IMG/VR virus record: IMGVR_UViG_3300031977_002332
Location: 1-27,650 of that record
DNA length: 27,650 nucleotides
Source of the DNA: a virus
Direction: 5' to 3' (one strand)
Positions 15,802-25,708 of the stretch are shown here, piece by piece. The position numbers and the translations under genes were made by a program. Numbering within the stretch: position 1 is the stretch's first letter; every line of letters starts with the position of its first letter. A model generated the notes under the pieces. That model was not told the DNA's origin. It worked only from the letters and a program-made list of their open reading frames with translations, and ran no database searches.

Positions 15802-17756
15802 TAATAGTATGATCCGCTAGTTGAAATGTTGGTTTCTGTTTGTGTTGTTTGTGTTGTAGTTGTAGACTGTGTTGTTGTCGAACTTAAACTGACACCTGTG
15901 TTTTTGTATTCTTTATCAAGAATATCCTGCGAAACAGAAATGGTAATCGCTGTGCTGTCTGTGCTGTCAATTGTAAGTATTTGATCACGAATAGATTTTA
16001 TATCTGTAGCACCAGCAGGTTCGCCTGGAAGAACTGTAACTTTAATAAAAGAGTCGCCAGACGAAATTGAAATTGGTCTAAAGTTTACCAATTCGATTTT
16101 GCCTGTGGTGTAATCAATTGTTCCCGCCGACTCTGTGATAAATTTTTTAACACCACCATCTAAGTAGTAAATGCGAATGTTACCATTACCATCGTCATCT
16201 AAGAAAGATGTCTTGTTCGAAAGGGTCGTACTATCATAATACTCAAACGAAGTAGAGTCAGTGATTGAGGCATGACCTGCGTGTGGATTGTGCAGTGGTG
16301 TAATAAAGTCAATTGTGTAAGATGCGGTAGAGTTTAGTGTTGGTGTCAAACGCTTTTGAACCTTTACGGTTGTGTTGTTACTCAGAATGCTAACGTCGGC
16401 AGAGTCAATTTCTTTCACAAAGGTTGAGTATCTAAATCCTCTACCAAACTTCTCAAGGCTATTATCACCGAAGTTTACAATCTTACTTCTAACCAATTCT
16501 TTGATTGCATCAGGACTTTTTACAGTTTTGTTTTGATCGTAGTAAACGTTCGTATCAACAATTAGGTACCGAGTGTCTGGATCTACAACAACAGGAATAA
16601 TACCAATAATATTTTTACCGTCAACAACTTTTCTTGCTATTGATTCTTTTTCGGTTACAGTAAGTTCATTGCCAGAGACAGGCTTTACAGCGATGAAAAC
16701 TTTGCCGTATTCTGGTGGATCATTTTCTTCACCACCCCAAACAAAAACAGATTCGATGTCTCCATACTCTTGACGAAGAATCGCTTGATAGTCCTCAGAG
16801 GTGACTGCACGATTTTGTGTTTGATACATTTTAGGAGCGTTGAAACGAATCGACTCTATGCTTTCAGACAAAGAACCACCAGAGGCTTCGCCCACAACCT
16901 TTACTGTTGCTGTCGCCTCTAGATTACCTTGAAAACTAAATGTTCTTGAACCCTCACCATCAGCCTTTCCCGCGCCGTTTGAGTCTGGACCACTTGTCAC
17001 AAGATATTGTAAGATTACTAAGTTGCCACTGTTTAGTGATTGACTAATTATACCATCACCGAAATAGACTTCGTACTTGCCGTCTTGATTCTGATCAAGG
17101 TAATAAACCTTTGACTCGCTCGTAGAATCAGAAACATTTGTTGATCTTTGCCAAACATCAGTGAAACCTGTTGTATCTGTCTTTGAGTTTTGAACACGAA
17201 CAATCAGCGTGCTTGTGTCTGCTTTATTTGTTGGTATCAAAAACTTTTGATTCTGGTCGTTAAGATCTGCAACGTATGAGAAAAAGTTAAATGCACCCTC
17301 TTTGATGTTTACATTTTTTGCCACATACTTAGAAAGAACTGTATCAAAAACAATTGAATAGTCTTTGTCAGCGATAAAGTTGTATGTTGTGCCATTGATT
17401 GTCGTGGTAAATTTTGTACCGAAAGAGATTACGTCGCTTGTAGGCTGCGTTGCAAATTCAACATCTACAACTGCTGTGGGTGCTGTAATAGACGTTGGGG
17501 TGTATCCTAGTGTCTTTGCGTTTGCAACAACAGCACTCTTTGTTACTGCTGTGCCAATGAACGCTTCGTTTGCTAACTGTTGTGCATAGAAGCCCTGATA
17601 GTGGGTGTTGTATGCGAGTATGTCAAGTAAAACAGAAAGACCTGACCCATCAAAGTCATAGTCTTTAAATTTGTCTTGTGATTTCAAGAACGACTTTAAA
17701 TTTGTTTTGATAGTATCAAAATCAAGAGCGTCTACCTTAAGATCGTTTGTTGCCAT
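15801..17756 (-). CDS. 6: Baseplate wedge protein gp6 (baseplate J-like)
   Basis: 651 aa, close to T4 gp6 (660). The N-terminus has DFDTIKTNLKSFLKSQ, DFDGSGLSVLLDILAYNTHY and ANEAFIGTAVTKSAVVANAK, the diagnostic opening of gp6/baseplate_J proteins. The middle holds RFNAPKMYQTQNRAVTSEDY, the J-like core that dimerises gp6 around the baseplate ring. gp6 with gp25 and gp53 forms the inner wedge ring that responds to the contraction signal. The last ~27 residues are a Thr/Gln/Ser-rich tail ending SGSYY, which looks disordered. It starts by a TAATG overlap with gp25 and ends by a TAATG overlap with the next gene, so the wedge genes are likely translated as a coupled set. Confidence 0.95.
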   Translation of the reverse strand: MATNDLKVDALDFDTIKTNLKSFLKSQDKFKDYDFDGSGLSVLLDILAYNTHYQGFYAQQLANEAFIGTAVTKSAVVANAKTLGYTPTSITAPTAVVDVEFATQPTSDVISFGTKFTTTINGTTYNFIADKDYSIVFDTVLSKYVAKNVNIKEGAFNFFSYVADLNDQNQKFLIPTNKADTSTLIVRVQNSKTDTTGFTDVWQRSTNVSDSTSESKVYYLDQNQDGKYEVYFGDGIISQSLNSGNLVILQYLVTSGPDSNGAGKADGEGSRTFSFQGNLEATATVKVVGEASGGSLSESIESIRFNAPKMYQTQNRAVTSEDYQAILRQEYGDIESVFVWGGEENDPPEYGKVFIAVKPVSGNELTVTEKESIARKVVDGKNIIGIIPVVVDPDTRYLIVDTNVYYDQNKTVKSPDAIKELVRSKIVNFGDNSLEKFGRGFRYSTFVKEIDSADVSILSNNTTVKVQKRLTPTLNSTASYTIDFITPLHNPHAGHASITDSTSFEYYDSTTLSNKTSFLDDDGNGNIRIYYLDGGVKKFITESAGTIDYTTGKIELVNFRPISISSGDSFIKVTVLPGEPAGATDIKSIRDQILTIDSTDSTAITISVSQDILDKEYKNTGVSLSSTTTQSTTTTQTTQTETNISTSGSYY

Positions 17757-18136
17757 TATCGTAACCTTCTAAGTGTGAATTCGAGTGTCGCTGGCTGAGA
17801 TACGTTTAAAACAGTGAAGTCGATGGTCACTTTCAAACCATTATTGTCAAAATCATCAACAACAATGACATTTTTTAGGCTTGCCCTTGGTTCAGAGTTT
17901 TCGATTGTTTGACTGATGAGTTTTTCAATCGTGTGTTTTGAACCTGGTGTTAAATGCTCAAAAAGAAGACCTGAGACACCAGCACTCAGGTCAGGTTGAA
18001 AAAGCCTCTCAAATCTACCAGGAACAATCAGATTCCGAATAGATCGTTTTACAGCATCAACATCTACTTTGGTGTTAACGTCAAGCGTAAAGGGGTTTTT
18101 TTCAAAGTCTAAATCTAGATCGACATATCTTGCCAT
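17756..18136 (-). CDS. 25: Baseplate wedge protein gp25 (GPW/gp25 family)
   Basis: 126 aa (T4 gp25 is 132). Matches the family in order: VKRSIRNLIVPGRFERLFQP, SGLLFEHLTPGSKHTIEKLI, NSEPRASLKNVIVV and VTIDFTVLN. The conserved EPR triad is present. gp25 joins gp6 in the inner baseplate and nucleates sheath assembly; despite the family name it is structural. The ATG at 18136 is the only sensible start, but there is no convincing ribosome binding site, and a perfect TATAAATA ends only 6 bases upstream, so its own transcript would be nearly leaderless. It is 18 bases downstream of the PEP-CTERM-like gene. Confidence 0.95.
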   Translation of the reverse strand: MARYVDLDLDFEKNPFTLDVNTKVDVDAVKRSIRNLIVPGRFERLFQPDLSAGVSGLLFEHLTPGSKHTIEKLISQTIENSEPRASLKNVIVVDDFDNNGLKVTIDFTVLNVSQPATLEFTLRRLR

Positions 18137-18142
18137 GCCATC

Positions 18143-18150
18143 TATTTATA
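18143..18150 (-). promoter_or_regulatory. T4-type late promoter element (TATAAATA), gp25 operon
   Basis: Exact TATAAATA on the minus strand in the 18-base gap before gp25. With T4-like geometry (element at -13 to -6) the transcript would start near 18137, within a base of the gp25 ATG. It would serve the wedge operon 25-6-(7 position) independently of the secreted-protein cassette. Confidence 0.6.
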
Positions 18151-18154
18151 CAAC

Positions 18155-18778
18155 TTATCTACGCTTTCTGGTTCTGTTGCCAATGATCGAAAGACCAAGA
18201 AGGGTGAGTGTGCCAGGTGCAGGTATTTCTTGTCCGTCAATCTCAGGAACAAAAGCAAAAAAGATCCCTGCGTCACCTCCACCCTGAACGATGCCAGGAT
18301 TCTCGATCCATCCATCCGTCCATGATATCACGAATAGAGTTGCGTATTCCCCAGGTTTCAATCCTGAGGAGAAAAAGTTTCCCTCGGCGCCCCAGTCCCA
18401 GTTGTACAACCCTGTTTCGTACGCAAAATCAACATAGTCGGGTGCGTTATATGCTTGTCTATTTTCATCATCTGTTGGTTGTTGAAAGTATCCAGGAACA
18501 GAAAGATGACTATTTTCTTCGGTTTTAGTGCCAACAAAAATATCAACGTCTTCAATTTCAGACAGTGATTCTTCGCTATTGTAGATTGTGTATGTGATTA
18601 GTATTGAACCGTCAGGTAGTCCTAGTTGATCTTGTTGCTCGTTTTCTGTGTAGACAGATGATCTAACTGTAGCAGCCCAGTTCTCGCCATAAATTTCTGA
18701 CTCAAGTGATGCCACTGGGTCTCCACCGATATCAGCAAGAGCAGCAGTCGCTAGTGTCAGCGCCAAGTATTTCATCAT
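18155..18778 (-). CDS. Secreted protein with PEP-CTERM-like C-terminal sorting tail
   Basis: 207 aa. A short signal peptide is clear: MMKYLALTLATAALA, cleavage likely before DIGGDP. The mature beta-rich domain includes LPDGSILITYTIYN, YNWDWGAEGNFFSSGLKPGE and ATLFVISWTDGW, typical of small PEP-CTERM cargo proteins. The last 23 residues (185-207) form a tripartite sorting signal: IPAPG, then hydrophobic TLTLLGLSIIGN, then basic RTRKRR. PEP-CTERM tails are processed by exosortase; the P-A-P-G form is the variant I know from Planctomycetota. No exosortase is in the window, so sorting would need the host. The start (ATGATG) has a GGAGAG site 6-8 bases upstream. A strong hairpin lies between it and the preceding gene. 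Function unknown; surface display or secretion is inferred. Confidence 0.75.
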   Translation of the reverse strand: MMKYLALTLATAALADIGGDPVASLESEIYGENWAATVRSSVYTENEQQDQLGLPDGSILITYTIYNSEESLSEIEDVDIFVGTKTEENSHLSVPGYFQQPTDDENRQAYNAPDYVDFAYETGLYNWDWGAEGNFFSSGLKPGEYATLFVISWTDGWIENPGIVQGGGDAGIFFAFVPEIDGQEIPAPGTLTLLGLSIIGNRTRKRR

Positions 18779-18798
18779 AATCTCTCCTTTTTAATCCC

Positions 18799-18839
18799 AA
18801 AAAAAATCGGTGACCGAAACTGTGAAACGGCCACCGATT
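18799..18839 (-). terminator. Rho-independent terminator or leader hairpin
   Basis: On the minus strand AATCGGTGGCCG and CGGTCACCGATT form a 12-bp stem with one G-T wobble and an 11-base loop. Eight T residues follow, two of them inside the stem. It lies 26 bases after the stop of the second dockerin-like gene and 20 bases before the PEP-CTERM-like gene, so it would end or attenuate transcription between them. A weak ACTAAATA at 18847-18854 could instead make it the 5' hairpin of the next mRNA. Confidence 0.85.
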
Positions 18840-18865
18840 GAGTAAGTATTTAGTTTTTTAGAAGT

Positions 18866-19870
18866 TTAGCAAGAACCCCATTCTGACAATACCTTAACAA
18901 TCGCTTCGAAGCCATCGACACGATATCGTCTTGCTGAGACATCAGACAAAACTTGAATCAAGTCACTAAAGCCAACAATTCCATCTTCATTCAAGTCAGA
19001 TGGACAAGAGTTGTCAGGGAAGATTTGCCCTGCTCCTGTGGCTTCAGTGTACGCTTCTTCGTTCTCTGGATTGTAAAGAACCACTCCACCAATGCCGATA
19101 TAGTCGGGACCAGTGATGCGAGCAATTCGCCAGTGATTGTCAAACTCAGTGGACTCCCACGGGTTCACATCATCGGGACCGTAATTCTTGAATCGCATCA
19201 GTTGACCAGACCAAGACCACGGATATCCAAAGTTTCCGTTTTCGTCGGGTGGAGGGCAAAGAACGGTGCCGTATTCGTTCGGGGGTGCAGCACCAGCCCA
19301 GAAAATCACTCGGTCATCTTCAAGCAGATTACCGACAAACTGTGGAATCTCAGGTTGCACTGTGAATGTGCTTGCGTTGTTTCCACTTTGTTGCCACGGT
19401 TCGTTCATCACGATCCATGAGTCTGCCCACCAGTAATCTTGTTCAATCAGTGATGTTTGTAAATCACCCCAGAACAAACCATCAACACTAGCAGTTTGAT
19501 AATAGAATCTTGGAACATCGGTGTTCTGCCAGTAGACAGTTTGGTTTGGATTGTTTTGCATACACTCCCACCATTCACCTGCTTCCCAGTCAGAGAAGTT
19601 TGGAATTTGTTGTTCCAAAAATTCAACATTTGCAGGGTCATTCAGTAGGAAGTCCATTTGCGAATCGTTGTGGTTCTTCCAAACCTTTCCGTCAATCCAC
19701 CAAGCAACAGAAGTGCCTGGACCTTCAGATCCTAATTTAACAGGAACATCACCGCGAGTGTTCTTAATGTAGACATCAATGGTTCTTCCGAACGGTGTGA
19801 GTCTACCCAAATCTTTATAAACAATTTCTGTTTGTGAAAGTGCTGTAGCACAAAGTAATTCTAAAATCAT
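18866..19870 (-). CDS. Secreted protein with C-terminal GC-type dockerin-like domain (paralog 2)
   Basis: 334 aa from ATG 19870, chosen because it has GGGGAG upstream and a 4-base ATGA overlap with the preceding gene; an ATG at 19885 would add five residues and lose this. A short hydrophobic leader (MILELLCATALSQ) looks like a minimal signal peptide without a basic n-region. The body holds GRLTPFGRTIDVYIK, WWECMQNNPN, DSWIVMNEP and RIARITGPDYIGIGGVVLYN, all shared with the neighbouring paralog. The last 48 residues (287-334) begin NSCPSD and end WGSC, and contain a calcium EF-hand loop DLNEDGIVGFSD with Asp/Asn at loop positions 1, 3, 5 and 12. This is the one-loop, Cys-bracketed dockerin-like ending typical of Phycisphaerae secreted proteins. 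Function unknown; probably exported. Confidence 0.8.
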   Translation of the reverse strand: MILELLCATALSQTEIVYKDLGRLTPFGRTIDVYIKNTRGDVPVKLGSEGPGTSVAWWIDGKVWKNHNDSQMDFLLNDPANVEFLEQQIPNFSDWEAGEWWECMQNNPNQTVYWQNTDVPRFYYQTASVDGLFWGDLQTSLIEQDYWWADSWIVMNEPWQQSGNNASTFTVQPEIPQFVGNLLEDDRVIFWAGAAPPNEYGTVLCPPPDENGNFGYPWSWSGQLMRFKNYGPDDVNPWESTEFDNHWRIARITGPDYIGIGGVVLYNPENEEAYTEATGAGQIFPDNSCPSDLNEDGIVGFSDLIQVLSDVSARRYRVDGFEAIVKVLSEWGSC

Positions 19871-20895
19871 TGACAATCTCCCCATTGCGAAATAACTTCA
19901 ATCAAAGCATCAAACTGTGTCTTTCTTGCTCCTGGTGCGTAAATGTTATTACTCAGTACAGTAAGCAAGTCTGAAAAACCAACTCTACCATCTTCGTCCA
20001 AATCAGCAGGACAAGAGTTGTCTGGTTCATACTCAAAGAAAACAGGCTCAGCAAAGTTCAGATCTTGACAATCAACTGCACTGTAAATAATCACACCGCT
20101 GATTGCGATACGATCAATACCTGTCATGCGAGCAAAGCGGTAGTGGTTTTCCATTTCGTCATCTTCCCAATCACCAGAACCAAACTCAATGACTTTACCA
20201 AATTCGTTATAGTTGTACCCACCACATTCGTAACTTTCATAACCGTCATCGGGTGTTGGTGCTTGTTCAAAGTAGTAATCGTTTTGCAACAACAATCCTT
20301 TACTTTGATCAATTCTTGGTGTGGCTTGAGCACCATTAATGTCTCCAGGAAAAATGAAACCAGGATGATTCATCACTAACCAAGATGTTCCCTTGTCCCA
20401 GTAGGAATCATAGTAAGGTTCGTTCCATCGTGGAATGCCGTAGGGACCGATGACATCCCAACGCTGTGAAACTTCGTGATTGCTGTAGAGCCAGTTGTTG
20501 TATGGATTGTCTTGCATGCAGAAGAAATATTCTCCTGGTTCACAATCATACACCCCATTAATGTTTGGACACTCATACTTGTTGAGCCAATATTCCATTG
20601 CCTCTGGTGAATTTTCGAGAGTAGGTTGGGTGTTTAAATTTCGGTTGAAGAAAAACTCACCTTCTGTTTCCCACCGAAAAGGAACAGCAAGGTCATTGTG
20701 AATGCGTGGCCAAGACGCACCCAAACCAAGCGGTCTTCGCCCGTTCGTTTTGATGTAAAGATCAAACGTTCTACCGAATGGTGTGATTCTGCCACGGTCA
20801 ACAGCGATGATATCGCCAGAAACATCTAGGCAGTCAGTGTTTGCAGTTGTATTGTATGTAAAAACACTGCAAAGCAATAAAGCAATTTTTTTCAT
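19867..20895 (-). CDS. Secreted protein with C-terminal GC-type dockerin-like domain (paralog 1)
   Basis: 342 aa, paralog of the next gene. Signal peptide MKKIALLLCSVFTYNTTANT with two lysines and a hydrophobic core; no lipobox. Shared blocks: GRITPFGRTFDLYIK, YFFCMQDNPYN, SWLVMNHPGF and RFARMTGIDRIAISGVIIYS. The C-terminal 50 residues (293-342) run from NSCPADLDEDGRVGFSDLL to WGDCQ with an intact EF-hand loop (DLDEDGRVGFSD); the second half looks like a degenerate repeat without calcium ligands. The mid-protein sequence is rich in Trp, Tyr and Asn, suggesting a beta-sandwich that binds sugar or other surface ligands. This is inference. It has its own perfect late promoter and an AAGGAG ribosome binding site, so it is expressed with virion genes, yet the signal peptide argues for export rather than virion assembly. 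Confidence 0.82.
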   Translation of the reverse strand: MKKIALLLCSVFTYNTTANTDCLDVSGDIIAVDRGRITPFGRTFDLYIKTNGRRPLGLGASWPRIHNDLAVPFRWETEGEFFFNRNLNTQPTLENSPEAMEYWLNKYECPNINGVYDCEPGEYFFCMQDNPYNNWLYSNHEVSQRWDVIGPYGIPRWNEPYYDSYWDKGTSWLVMNHPGFIFPGDINGAQATPRIDQSKGLLLQNDYYFEQAPTPDDGYESYECGGYNYNEFGKVIEFGSGDWEDDEMENHYRFARMTGIDRIAISGVIIYSAVDCQDLNFAEPVFFEYEPDNSCPADLDEDGRVGFSDLLTVLSNNIYAPGARKTQFDALIEVISQWGDCQ

Positions 20896-20916: not shown

Positions 20917-20924
20917 TATTTATA
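20917..20924 (-). promoter_or_regulatory. T4-type late promoter element (TATAAATA), secreted cassette
   Basis: Exact TATAAATA on the minus strand in the 43-base gap between the small acidic gene and the first dockerin-like gene. T4-like spacing gives a start near 20911 and a 16-base leader beginning AAGGAG, an ideal ribosome binding site for ATG at 20895. This is the best-formed late promoter in the window. Confidence 0.7.
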
Positions 20925-20938
20925 CTAACACTTTAGGA

Positions 20939-21229
20939 TTACCCTCTGGTAATTTCTAAGATTCTAGTTATCTGCTCTTCGCATTGTGCGGCACGCTTTG
21001 CACCATCCCAAAGAATGTAATCTTTGGATGTATCCTTTTTCAAGTTATACAGCAATGGCAAAACAAGTTTTTCAAGAGCCTCTAATTTGCTCTTCTCATC
21101 ACTTGATGCGCCGGTGTGTTCTTTCACTTCTATATCATCAGCAAAACTAAAGTCAAAATCAAAAACATCTTCACCTGAAGAAATTAGATCTTCAATCTCT
21201 TTGTTTATCTTTTCTCTATCGAATGACAT
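20939..21229 (-). CDS. Small acidic protein of the baseplate region
   Basis: 96 aa, acidic N-terminal half with the motif GEDVFDFDFSFADDIEV, then a helical half (KLEALEKLVLPLLYNLKKD, then DYILWDGAKRAAQCEEQITR). The combination of an acidic FDF stretch followed by LPLL.NL.K...K.YI.W is one I associate with a conserved small protein next to baseplate genes in T4-like marine phages; its function is not established. It has an AAGGAAA ribosome binding site 10 bases after the beta-helix gene. It lies immediately before the secreted cassette, so the cassette appears inserted between it and gp25. Interaction or assembly-factor role is possible but unproven. Confidence 0.7.
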   Translation of the reverse strand: MSFDREKINKEIEDLISSGEDVFDFDFSFADDIEVKEHTGASSDEKSKLEALEKLVLPLLYNLKKDTSKDYILWDGAKRAAQCEEQITRILEITRG

Positions 21230-21239
21230 TTATTTTCCT

Positions 21240-22400
21240 TTATGAAACTGAAACAAACTCGAAATCTTCGTTTTGAAATGCACCTATGTTTCCAGAACCC
21301 TTAAACCTGTTGAACACGTTTGATGTTCTTTTTACCCTGTAGTCTGCATTATCATAATCAAAAAAGTCAGCGGTCACTGCCGAAACCTCGGTGTTTAACA
21401 CACTAAACTCTGTGATGCCGTTGAAGTATGCTGCCGAACCAGAGTATGAATTTTTTGACGATAACAGTTTACCCTCTGCATCAGACTCCACAAAATTACC
21501 ATCTACATTGAATGCTATGTTACCGTCAACACGATGCCCTTGTGTGGAAGTGTCTAACTCTTGAAAGTCCATAGCATCACCAGCAAGATTTACAAAAGTG
21601 TTTTTATAGATTACACTATTTCTCGATGCAGATGTCGCATCAAAATGAAATCCGTCCGCTGCTCCATCTGCCATCAATGTATAGAGTATGTGTGTTCCGA
21701 CGACATTGGATGTAGATATAATGTGATGAGCAGTCGAAGCACTGATAGATTGAGTCTTGCCTGGTCCATATATTCGACTATCTGCTATCAGAGTATTGTG
21801 CGTCCCACTTGCATCCAAAACTGCCCCTAAATTATCACTGTCTGGTTCTGCTACAACTTCACACATGATAAGATTGCCACCCACCATCTTATGAACAGAT
21901 GTGTTTGTGTTGATTGTTGTTTTTGCCTTGAAGAAGCATCCCAGATAAGACACATAAAGAATCTCACTGAAAACATTATTTACAACACCGTCACGACCAA
22001 ACGAAGAATTTGTATTCACAAAACCAATACAGTAAAAGTGACCCTGAGAGTCGCTGTCATAAATCGCTGTAGCAGCACTGTTGGTAATCATCGGGTAGTG
22101 TGTGGTGTCAAGATGCATACCAGTTTCATCAAAGGATGGTTCAAGTATTGTTCCATCTGATTTTGCACCCACCCAAAAGTTTGGTTGCGTATCTGTTGCC
22201 TCTGATCCCGTTGAAACAAGTTCGGAACTTACATTGTATGTTCCCTCTAAGAAGATCCATCTTTTGTTTTGACGATCTTGACTTTTGATTTCTGTAGACC
22301 AGTCACCTGCACCATCTGTTGCCGGCATCGCATTTGCTACAGAATCTCCTGAATTGTTACCTGCACCTGTTGGGGAAAAAAATAAATCTGTGACTGACAT
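21240..22400 (-). CDS. Beta-helix tail fibre/spike protein (paralog 2)
   Basis: 386 aa, predicted right-handed parallel beta-helix, the fold of pectate lyases and many tailspikes. Regular short strands with turn Asn/Asp residues are seen (for example FYCIGFVNTNSS, NSVIYKNTFVNLAGDAMDF, HRVDGNIAFNVDGNFV). The N-terminal segment (KRWIFLEGTYNV, then FWVGAKSDGTILEPSFDETG) and the C-terminal segment (NIGAFQNEDFEFV) are shared with its neighbour, whereas the middle differs. No signal peptide, so it is likely a virion protein. An enzymatic depolymerase cannot be confirmed because no catalytic cluster was identified. Its ATG overlaps the neighbour's stop (TAATG). Probable role: glycan or receptor binding. 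Confidence 0.75.
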   Translation of the reverse strand: MSVTDLFFSPTGAGNNSGDSVANAMPATDGAGDWSTEIKSQDRQNKRWIFLEGTYNVSSELVSTGSEATDTQPNFWVGAKSDGTILEPSFDETGMHLDTTHYPMITNSAATAIYDSDSQGHFYCIGFVNTNSSFGRDGVVNNVFSEILYVSYLGCFFKAKTTINTNTSVHKMVGGNLIMCEVVAEPDSDNLGAVLDASGTHNTLIADSRIYGPGKTQSISASTAHHIISTSNVVGTHILYTLMADGAADGFHFDATSASRNSVIYKNTFVNLAGDAMDFQELDTSTQGHRVDGNIAFNVDGNFVESDAEGKLLSSKNSYSGSAAYFNGITEFSVLNTEVSAVTADFFDYDNADYRVKRTSNVFNRFKGSGNIGAFQNEDFEFVSVS

Positions 22401-23557
22401 TATCCTGCTCCTACAAATTCAAAGTCTTGATTTTGAATCGCACCAAAGTTTCGAGTCCCACCGATACCCTTATACAAGGGTGACGTTTTTGCTATTCTAA
22501 AATCTTGGTTAGCATAGTCAACAAAGTCACTGGTCGAGACTGTTTGATTTCCGATAGTTGCCATAGATTCATACGAATCTAAATTTACAAAGTTAGATCC
22601 ACCAATGCTACCAAAAGCATTAAAGGATGCGATAACAATATCATCATCATTTGCATTTGCTTTCACACCATCACCATCTATATCAAAGAATATATTTCCA
22701 TGAATAGAAGTTCCTCTCTGATCATCTGTTCCAGTAGAGGTATCATGTCCATCACCACCAATAGAAATGACGGTGCAATTTATCATGTTAGAATTTCGAT
22801 CATTACTTGTTCCATCATAAATTGCAGGACCGTGAACATTGTAAATCAAAGTTTCAACAACAGAATCATTGAGTGTTCCTAACTCGATTCCTCGACCCTC
22901 ATTGGTTCCACTTTTACCTCCACCATACACACGACAATTTATGACAGCAGATTGATTTGTTCCTCCTGCATTGATGATGTTTTTGTAGTTGGTGCCATTC
23001 ATCACTGCTTCACACATCAATGCAGTCCCACCCCAAACTTGAAAAATAGTCGAACTCGTTCCGTTGGGTGTTATCTTACCATAACAACCAATGAATGAGA
23101 TATTCTTTGATTCATTAAAATCATTATTAATGAGAAAACCATTTCTGCTGGCATTCGTATTTTCAAAGTGGATACACTTAAAAACTTCAACCGCAGCAGT
23201 GTCGATGAGAGTGGTGTTTGCAGAGTTAATGATTTTTGGGTAGTTGTCTGTGACGAGGTGCATACCTGTTTCGTCAAACTGTGGTTCAAGAAGTGTTCCG
23301 TCACTCTTTGCACCAACCCATATGTTCGGATCTGCTATAGTCGGATCACTTGTTGTGAAGACTAATTCTGATTGCACATTGTAAGTGCCTTCAAGAAAAA
23401 TAAAGCGACGATTTGCTCTATCCGCATTTTTGATATTATTTCCCCAGTCGTCGCTCGAAGCGTTGAGTGCATTGAAAGCAGTGCCAGGTGTAGTTCCATC
23501 TTGTTGTGCTGATCTAATAACGTCACCAGCAGCAAAATATACATCAGTCAATGCCAT
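22400..23557 (-). CDS. Beta-helix tail fibre/spike protein (paralog 1)
   Basis: 385 aa, tandem paralog of the following gene. Shared N-terminal block RRFIFLEGTYNV, WVGAKSDGTLLEPQFDETGM and YPKIINSANTTL; shared C-terminal block FGAIQNQDFEFV. Between them are beta-helix-like coils (SVVETLIYNVHGPAIYDGTS, RNSNMINCTVISIGGDGHD, GTSIHGNIFFDIDGDGVKA). The ATG at 23557 has a perfect AGGAGA site that overlaps the end of the collagen-like gene. It follows that gene directly, so the three genes form an adhesion block that is probably attached to the baseplate. No signal peptide or catalytic motif was identified. Function inferred as host-surface binding. Confidence 0.75.
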   Translation of the reverse strand: MALTDVYFAAGDVIRSAQQDGTTPGTAFNALNASSDDWGNNIKNADRANRRFIFLEGTYNVQSELVFTTSDPTIADPNIWVGAKSDGTLLEPQFDETGMHLVTDNYPKIINSANTTLIDTAAVEVFKCIHFENTNASRNGFLINNDFNESKNISFIGCYGKITPNGTSSTIFQVWGGTALMCEAVMNGTNYKNIINAGGTNQSAVINCRVYGGGKSGTNEGRGIELGTLNDSVVETLIYNVHGPAIYDGTSNDRNSNMINCTVISIGGDGHDTSTGTDDQRGTSIHGNIFFDIDGDGVKANANDDDIVIASFNAFGSIGGSNFVNLDSYESMATIGNQTVSTSDFVDYANQDFRIAKTSPLYKGIGGTRNFGAIQNQDFEFVGAG

Positions 23558-23560
23558 ACA

Positions 23561-25708
23561 TTATCTCCTTTCAAATGTCACAAAGGCTTGAACTGTTGTT
23601 GCTCCTGCATCGTTTGAACCTACATTAAAGAATAAGAAATCTCCTGATGTGGCAGAGGCGAAGTCAAACGAGGTAGAACTCGCGGTGAATCCTAATGTTC
23701 CTAAAGTTGCACCATGAATCGAGTTTGTTGTGACTGCACCGAAATCTGATCCAGCAATCGTAAATGATCCTGTAAATCCACCTGTCGCACCAGATCTAAT
23801 TTGTAATTGTTTGAATGTGGCGTTGTAAGGAACTCTGAACAAGGTATCTGTTTTACTACCTGTAGAAATCGCACTTGAAGCACGAATACTAAATGTTGCT
23901 GTGTTCTCGCCTCGATGTGCTGTGTCTTGTGTTGTACCATCACCAAAAACAAGTTCTGTTAAAGCACCTAGTGTTAATCCGCTACCAGTGACGCTAACAC
24001 CACCATTAAACTGAGCATCGCCCGTGACTGTAATGCCGTTGTTAAATTGTGTCTCTGTTGAGGTAAGATCGATACCCTCTCTGCCACCAGCGAATAAAAC
24101 AAGATTGTCATTGTTAAATTGCACTTTTGTGTCACTATCACCTTCTCGTTGCATTTGTGATGAAATCGTAACGGCCCCCGCTGCAAGTTTTATGAAGCCG
24201 TTTGTTTCATCAACGGTTAGTAGTGTTGCGTTTCCACCTTCTTCAGTGTCTCCTAAAGTGATGTCTGCTCCAAGACTACCAGAAATTTTAATACCGGGAT
24301 CATTACCTCCTTGCTTTATAATTCCTGGGCTCGATTTAAGATCTAATACACCAGTAAGTTCTATATCTTTGAATATCTTTGCACCACCTGTAACAAAAAG
24401 ACCACCACCAGCAGTAAGAGGTCCTGTTACATTAACATTGCCGTTGAACGTAGATTCACCAGTCACAATAAGAGTCTGTGGAAAGTTTACTTGACCAAAC
24501 GCAGTTAAACCACCTGTGATGTTATTTGCAGATGATAAACCTGATCCATCAGCAAACTGAATACCACCCGTGGCATTGTTTGATTTAAACACACCGTCAG
24601 TATCAAAACCTCTTGGGTTGTTAACACGCTGTAGAGGATCTAAACTTGATCCATCTGCTGCAAGTTGCCCAGCAGATGTGTTGTTAGTAAATACAAGTCT
24701 GCCATTTTGTAGCACCAACATACTGCCATTTTGGGCTCGTGTCGGTGTAAACAAAACGGTCGATGCCGACTCTTCGCCTCTGGCAAGAAGTGTTGTAAAA
24801 TCATCACTTGAAACAATAAACTGAGGACCCGCTGTTCCGTGAACCTCAAAGTTTCCTGTTCCTGGCAATGTAAAAGAGTCACCGTGTGTGAACCCACTAC
24901 CTGTAATGATTACACGACCACCAAATGTAGCACCTTCTCCTGTGACTATGCTATTGAATGCTACGTTAGGTGTTGTCTCATCGATTGAAAGTGTAACACC
25001 ATCTATTCTAAGACCAGCACTTAATCCTAAGAAACCTGTCGCACCTGTCGCACCTGTCGTACCTGTCGTACCAGTTGTGCCTGTGGTACCAGTTGTGCCT
25101 GTGGTACCAGTTGTGCCTGTGGTACCTGTAGTGCCAGTAACACCTTGTGGTCCAGTGTTACCTGTAGTGCCAGTTGTACCTGTCGTACCAGTAACACCTT
25201 GTGGTCCAGTGTTACCTGTTGTGCCTGTAGTGCCAGTAGTACCTGTGGTTCCAGTTGTGCCTGTAGTACCAGTTGTACCTGTGACACCCTGTGGTCCTGT
25301 GTTGCCTGTAGTACCGGTTGTACCTGTGGTTCCAGTTGTGCCTGTAGTACCAGTTGTACCTGTGACACCCTGTGGCCCTGTGTTACCTGTGGTTCCAGTC
25401 GTACCCGTTGTGCCAGTTGTGCCTTGCGGCCCTGTGTTACCTGTTGCACCTGTAGTTCCAGTTGTACCAGTAACACCTGTTGTGCCAGTTGCCCCAGTTG
25501 TACCAGTAACACCTGTAGTGCCAGTTGCCCCAGTTGTACCAGTAGTGCCTGTAGTACCAGTTGCTCCTGTTGTGCCTGTTGTGCCTGTTGTGCCTACTGC
25601 ACCAGAAGCACCTTGAGGGCCCTCTCTTGAACCTACAACATTTACAGTATCTTGTCCAGAAACTTTAACAGAGTTGCTTGAAGATGATGATGTGACACGA
25701 ACTTTCAT
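23561..25708 (-). CDS. Collagen-like tail fibre protein
   Basis: 715 aa. N-terminal anchor [16 protein letters not shown] followed by DTVNVVG, then a collagen-like Gly-X-Y tract from about residue 30 to 226 made almost wholly of G-T-T triplets, broken by [10 protein letters not shown] units. The C-terminal two thirds are fibre-like beta segments (for example [20 protein letters not shown] and [20 protein letters not shown]) and end in a globular beta domain ([37 protein letters not shown]). Collagen-like stretches form trimeric rods in phage fibres. It starts by TAATG overlap with the 280-aa gene and ends in the ribosome binding site of the beta-helix gene. Likely a trimeric rod-and-head fibre; receptor unknown. 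Confidence 0.85.
25030..25621 (-). repeat. Gly-X-Y coding repeat tract with an 81-base near-identical unit
   Basis: About 65 nine-base Gly-X-Y units encode the collagen-like rod. Two copies of a longer block, beginning ACCTGTGGTT (plus strand) at 25241 and 25322, are exactly 81 bases apart, i.e. 27 residues or nine triplets, and differ by very few bases. This shows tandem duplication or recombination within the tract and predicts length variation between relatives. Confidence 0.85.

Follow-up and report, generated by a model that had tools for sequence, protein, structure and literature searches.

A block of three consecutive genes beside the baseplate wedge gene gp25 of a marine T4-like phage is conserved and exchanged between phages, carries late-promoter and terminator-like signals, and encodes proteins whose C-terminal tags are similar to those of Phycisphaerales, a candidate host order in which exosortase is encoded. 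Judged from the sequences, the chances are about even that this cassette is mobile cargo of phages infecting Phycisphaerales-like planctomycetes, with products that enter the surface-display route of the host. If this is true, exosortase- and dockerin-type address tags are the means by which phages get proteins of their own displayed on the surface of their hosts, and phages offer a way to test what planctomycete dockerin-like modules bind and what they are for.

The window, meaning the whole stretch of 27,650 nucleotides that was analysed, carries D1, D2 and PEP as three minus-strand genes, and their positions and order between a small conserved gene and gp25 are as the first-pass annotation had reported them. 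D1 (19867..20895, 342 amino acids) is preceded by sm96 (20939..21229, minus strand), a conserved gene of 96 amino acids, and PEP (18155..18778, 207 amino acids) is followed by gp25 (17756..18136, minus strand; Pfam GPW_gp25, E 5.7e-8; PHROG 261, E 4.8e-36), with gp6 and further baseplate genes downstream. The phage is T4-like, because the closest named relative of its gp6 is that of Pelagibacter phage HTVC008M (42%), whose host is SAR11, and the T4-type baseplate genes gp25 and gp6 are both present. The region between a PAAR-like gene and gp25 is a variable island, in which positions 21240-23557 hold two related fibre/adhesin-like genes where relatives have one or two others (384-388 or 377 amino acids); the adjacent positions 23561-25708 encode a collagen-like protein with long TGTTGTTG repeats that also differs among relatives.

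D1 consists of a signal peptide, a virus-specific body with a GRITPFGRT motif, and a C-terminal dockerin-like module (19870..20031, minus strand; CPADLDEDGRVGFSDLLTVLS...WGDC). Its paralogue D2 (18866..19885, minus strand, 339 amino acids as called), 37-38% identical to it, ends in a module of the same kind (18869..19024, minus strand). The true start of D2 is probably codon 6 (19870), whose ATG would share an ATGA with the stop codon of D1, with a ribosome site, GGGGAG, lying within the Trp-Gly codons of D1; in L027 and L028 the listed first codon is TTG and the ATG at codon 6 is kept. All three genes had been described as encoding signal peptides, and this holds well for D1 and PEP, whose signal peptides look canonical, but less so for D2, which has a short signal peptide (MILELLCATALSQ) without a positive n-region; signal peptides of the D2 and D3 types are not as strong as that description suggested. 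In N-terminal hydrophobicity the three proteins together take ranks 1, 2 and 4 among the 21 coding-strand ORFs, and the signal-peptide pattern is maintained among homologues despite sequence divergence. The description of D1 and D2 as dockerin-like paralogues stands as to their paralogy and the C-terminal module; dockerins, however, have two Ca-binding F-hand repeats, whereas the phage module has one Ca-binding-type loop followed by a loop-less second half, and neither protein matches the Pfam and NCBIfam dockerin models at E <= 1. No fold was assigned to D1, whose structure model is of too low a quality (pLDDT 51); its best match, to a scaffoldin at VIA Z 3.9, is not meaningful.

PEP has a signal peptide, a beta-sandwich-type body and a sorting tail at residues 185-207 (18158..18226, minus strand). 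The tail has the layout of an exosortase substrate, with motif, hydrophobic stretch and Arg cluster following an exported-type domain and with PAP in place of PEP, and all three elements are kept in 16 of the 16 aligned PEP homologues. To this extent the PEP-CTERM-like tail is as first described, but its score against Pfam PEP-CTERM PF07589 is 15.3 bits, below the cut-off of 20.7. Since neither the curated Dockerin nor the curated PEP-CTERM cut-off is reached, we keep the ending "-like" in both names.

The first-pass annotation had noticed a perfect late promoter ahead of the cassette and a hairpin within it, and both were found. The promoter, of T4 type with the sequence TATAAATA, lies at 20917..20924 on the minus strand, 29 nt ahead of D1, and a second perfect one, just ahead of gp25 (18143..18150, minus strand), closes the cassette; over both strands the window would be expected to hold 0.69 such promoters, and it holds three, each of them in an intergenic gap of the coding strand. 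The same promoter element is also present at -28 to -30 in L001, L002, L007 and L031. Of 18 cassettes, 8 have a perfect late promoter in the 150 nt upstream, a span in which the background rate would give 0.016, although the promoter is common by descent among related phages and the 18 are not independent tests. Between D2 and PEP stands a terminator-like hairpin with a run of 8 T (18799..18839, stem 18805-18839, minus strand), with an RNA fold z of -3.6, which is kept in L007 and also in L001, there with a two-sided pair change (C-G to G-U); in other cassette groups the hairpin at this spot differs from it and is weaker. Checked as a moron-type terminator, the hairpin sits before PEP, not after it.

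A search of related phages for the block and its baseplate location, proposed with the original description, found the whole or part of it at the same site in nine other IMG/VR contigs, as D1, D2 and PEP, as a different D with PEP, or as PEP alone. PEP lacks an adjoining D gene in L012 and L013, and at L013:2190-2284 a deletion scar retains the final codons of the lost D gene (VLSEWGDCE and stop) between sm96 and PEP. In HTVC008M and in other T4-like contigs gp25 is not preceded by such a block. The PEP family is also found at other loci of T4-like contigs, mostly with one to three D genes ahead of it, adjoining Hsp20, putative head-targeted genes, or an Hsp20-dUTPase-DNA polymerase group. A D homologue about 56% identical (55-57%) to the T4-like D genes is encoded in the T7-like contig L054, which has primase-helicase, polymerase, portal, capsid and tail genes; this T7-like occurrence is that of one contig, and a search of IMG/VR found no D gene in any further T7-like contig, nor the 194-amino-acid protein (L054:7948-8532) that overlaps the D gene of L054 and itself ends in a dockerin-like module. 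The latter protein has no other relative in IMG/VR. An assembly join of phage and bacterial contigs, which had been named as a way in which the block might be an artefact, was rejected, as identical junctions recur in independent contigs and the G+C of L054 is uniform.

The cassette genes are under purifying selection, with dN/dS of about 0.06-0.2, and have recently been exchanged between phages. When the window is compared with L001, synonymous divergence is 0.08 for D1, 0.21 for D2 and 0.37 for PEP, against 1.65 for gp6 and 1.23 for the downstream neighbour of gp6. These two sets of values, the low dN/dS and a synonymous divergence far below that of gp6, argue that the cassette is both selected for and exchanged, and because it is swapped, lost and much less diverged than the flanking baseplate genes, it behaves as mobile cargo.

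The same observations bear on the possibility that D and PEP belong to the virion, as structural proteins associated with the tail or fibres, and that their N-termini merely resemble signal peptides. The late promoter and the location of the block in the window amid fibre and baseplate genes would suit such a role. Elsewhere, however, the family adjoins genes for Hsp20 and DNA polymerase, one D gene belongs to a T7-like phage, the D and PEP genes are dispensable and swapped, and the signal-peptide pattern is retained while the sequences diverge. Being independent of location, dispensable and of exported type, the genes are less likely to serve in the virion, and we consider such a role very unlikely. 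The alternative preferred from the outset, of exported-type cargo as opposed to baseplate parts, is supported by the unrelated loci, the T7-like homologue, the loss and swapping of genes, the cassette's own late promoter and the match of the tags to those on surface proteins of a single bacterial order.

Those tags point to a candidate host. A profile built from the PEP proteins of the phages has matches in 103 of 121 Phycisphaerales genomes, at up to 21 places each and, among the matches listed, mostly within the last 30-60 residues; the control, one Bacteroidetes order, gave a match in 1 of 60 genomes, outside the tail. The dockerin-like module profile matches 47 of the 121 genomes, at up to 70 places each, and in a sample of the phylum 6 of 294 genomes, at least five of them in Phycisphaerales. 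The module is homologous to bacterial dockerin-like C-termini, with per-genome E values as low as 8.8e-12 across positions 4-53 of its 54, and the Phycisphaerales protein L118 is a counterpart of its half-loop form. Exosortase is encoded in all 121 Phycisphaerales genomes and in 1 of 14 controls. The protein bodies are another matter: the D body is essentially absent (one weak partial match in 301 Phycisphaerales), and the PEP body was found in 0 of 301 Phycisphaerales and nowhere in a scan of bacterial genome contigs. We do not claim L096 (E 1.4e-5, apparently full-length) as a PEP orthologue, its match being largely to the tail. From the similarity of the tags we infer that the hosts are Phycisphaerales-like planctomycetes, the contrast being one between Phycisphaerales on one side and a single Bacteroidetes order and the phylum sample on the other, in bacterial genomes that are largely MAGs with possible contamination. 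A Bacteroidetes host, suggested by a dockerin-like match (L043), is not favoured because of the 1 of 60 in the tail control. Against a Phycisphaerales host stand the G+C of most loci examined in that order, which exceeds that of the phage, and the SAR11 host of HTVC008M, the nearest named phage as judged by gp6; a tail-matching locus in a 1.9-Mb genome (L097) has 41% G+C. The phage tRNAs gave no host clue. As they stand, the tags offer a way of seeking phages of uncultured planctomycetes from sequence.

Both kinds of tag have bacterial counterparts. The GC-type dockerin-anchored proteins of Phycisphaerales (NCBIfam NF041540) carry, as phage D does, a C-terminal CPxDLxxDGxxxFxDLLxVL...WGxC module on exported proteins and are numerous in each genome (69 and at least 83); the phage modules differ in having one loop only, in falling below the curated model, and in being joined to a body not found in bacteria. 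PEP-CTERM/exosortase proteins share with phage PEP the signal peptide and the C-terminal motif, hydrophobic stretch and Arg cluster, whereas phage PEP has PAP, lies below the Pfam cut-off, is phage-encoded, and is a predicted substrate.

We therefore picture the following course of events, as a proposal. In T4-like members the cassette would be expressed late in infection from the late promoters, and D1, D2 and PEP would be exported by way of their predicted signal peptides. The dockerin-like module of D may serve as an address tag like the one that each host genome puts on tens of its proteins, and the PEP tail is of the kind that a host exosortase would process, so that display at the surface would probably follow from the export signals together with host-like address tags. 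Having entered the display route, the proteins could coat the infected cell or the lysis debris. Masking of receptors, by which superinfecting phages or released progeny would not bind doomed cells, is our guess as to purpose; this form of superinfection exclusion seems to us the likeliest and is the one we favour, and it is also the weakest step. For freshwater Phycisphaerae, a "planctosome" of cohesin and dockerin has been proposed (PMC6461901). More tentatively, and with rather less than even probability, unrelated phages of uncultured Phycisphaerales, T4-like and T7-like, may share a mobile cassette that hijacks the two display routes of the host, exosortase sorting and dockerin docking, and late in infection rebuilds the surface of the infected cell; it would be a counterpart of the planctosome encoded by phages.

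The main rival to receptor masking has the same proteins acting as decoys, with exported D saturating the receptor sites of host dockerin-tagged proteins and PEP competing for exosortase, so that the surface coat loosens and lysis and release become easier. It would accord with the match of the phage tags to Phycisphaerales surface-protein tags in both tail and dockerin-like profiles, with the late promoter before the cassette, and with the several diverse D paralogues per phage, which could fit several receptors; Pfam cohesin as a candidate dockerin partner, however, is found in only 9 of the 121 genomes of the order, and we think this explanation rather unlikely. D and PEP might also form a self-contained pair, the PEP beta-sandwich being a cohesin-like receptor for D modules and the tail anchoring the complex on the cell. 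The two co-occur nearly always, and the PEP structure model (pLDDT 60) is a generic beta-sandwich with cohesin chain 6kgf at rank 31 among the Foldseek matches of this weak model. Those matches are nonetheless generic Ig-like ones with E > 1e-3 and VIA Z <= 8, PEP has no match to Pfam cohesin, and PEP stands in L012 and L013 without a neighbouring D, all of which leaves the pairing quite improbable.

Phage-encoded exported proteins and morons include T4 Imm and Sp, lambda Bor and Lom, and T5 Llp. Like these, the cassette is proposed to encode accessory exported proteins acting at the envelope; it is accessory, has its own promoter and is exchanged between phages, as morons are, but it differs from them in being a multi-gene late cassette. 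We know of none among Imm, Sp, Bor, Lom, Llp and the HTVC008M porin with dockerin-like or exosortase-type tags. The first-pass annotation knew of no described phage system with this pairing, which remains so for the open-access papers searched, none of which joins PEP-CTERM, phage and dockerin, and for 50,697 named phage records, in which D1 and PEP have no match.

Other envelope-type and dockerin-like genes were seen in related contigs. The annotated porin gene of HTVC008M, an accessory exported envelope-type protein that we group with phage morons, lies near gp25 and has no clear similarity to a porin-like outer-membrane protein with a signal peptide in context-B contigs (L040:5098-5898, L044:1-630, L044:769-1713), which also encode a weak PHO4-like transporter (E 0.004). 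At L044:12281-14371 and L045:18358-19287 several genes start with MKSFKRFL(K/S)E, which we take to resemble the T4 capsid-targeting leader, and contain EF-hand/dockerin-like repeats (for example DYEKLLQILSDWG...FEDLLQLLSNWG); they may possibly encode head-packaged dockerin-like proteins in the same phages.
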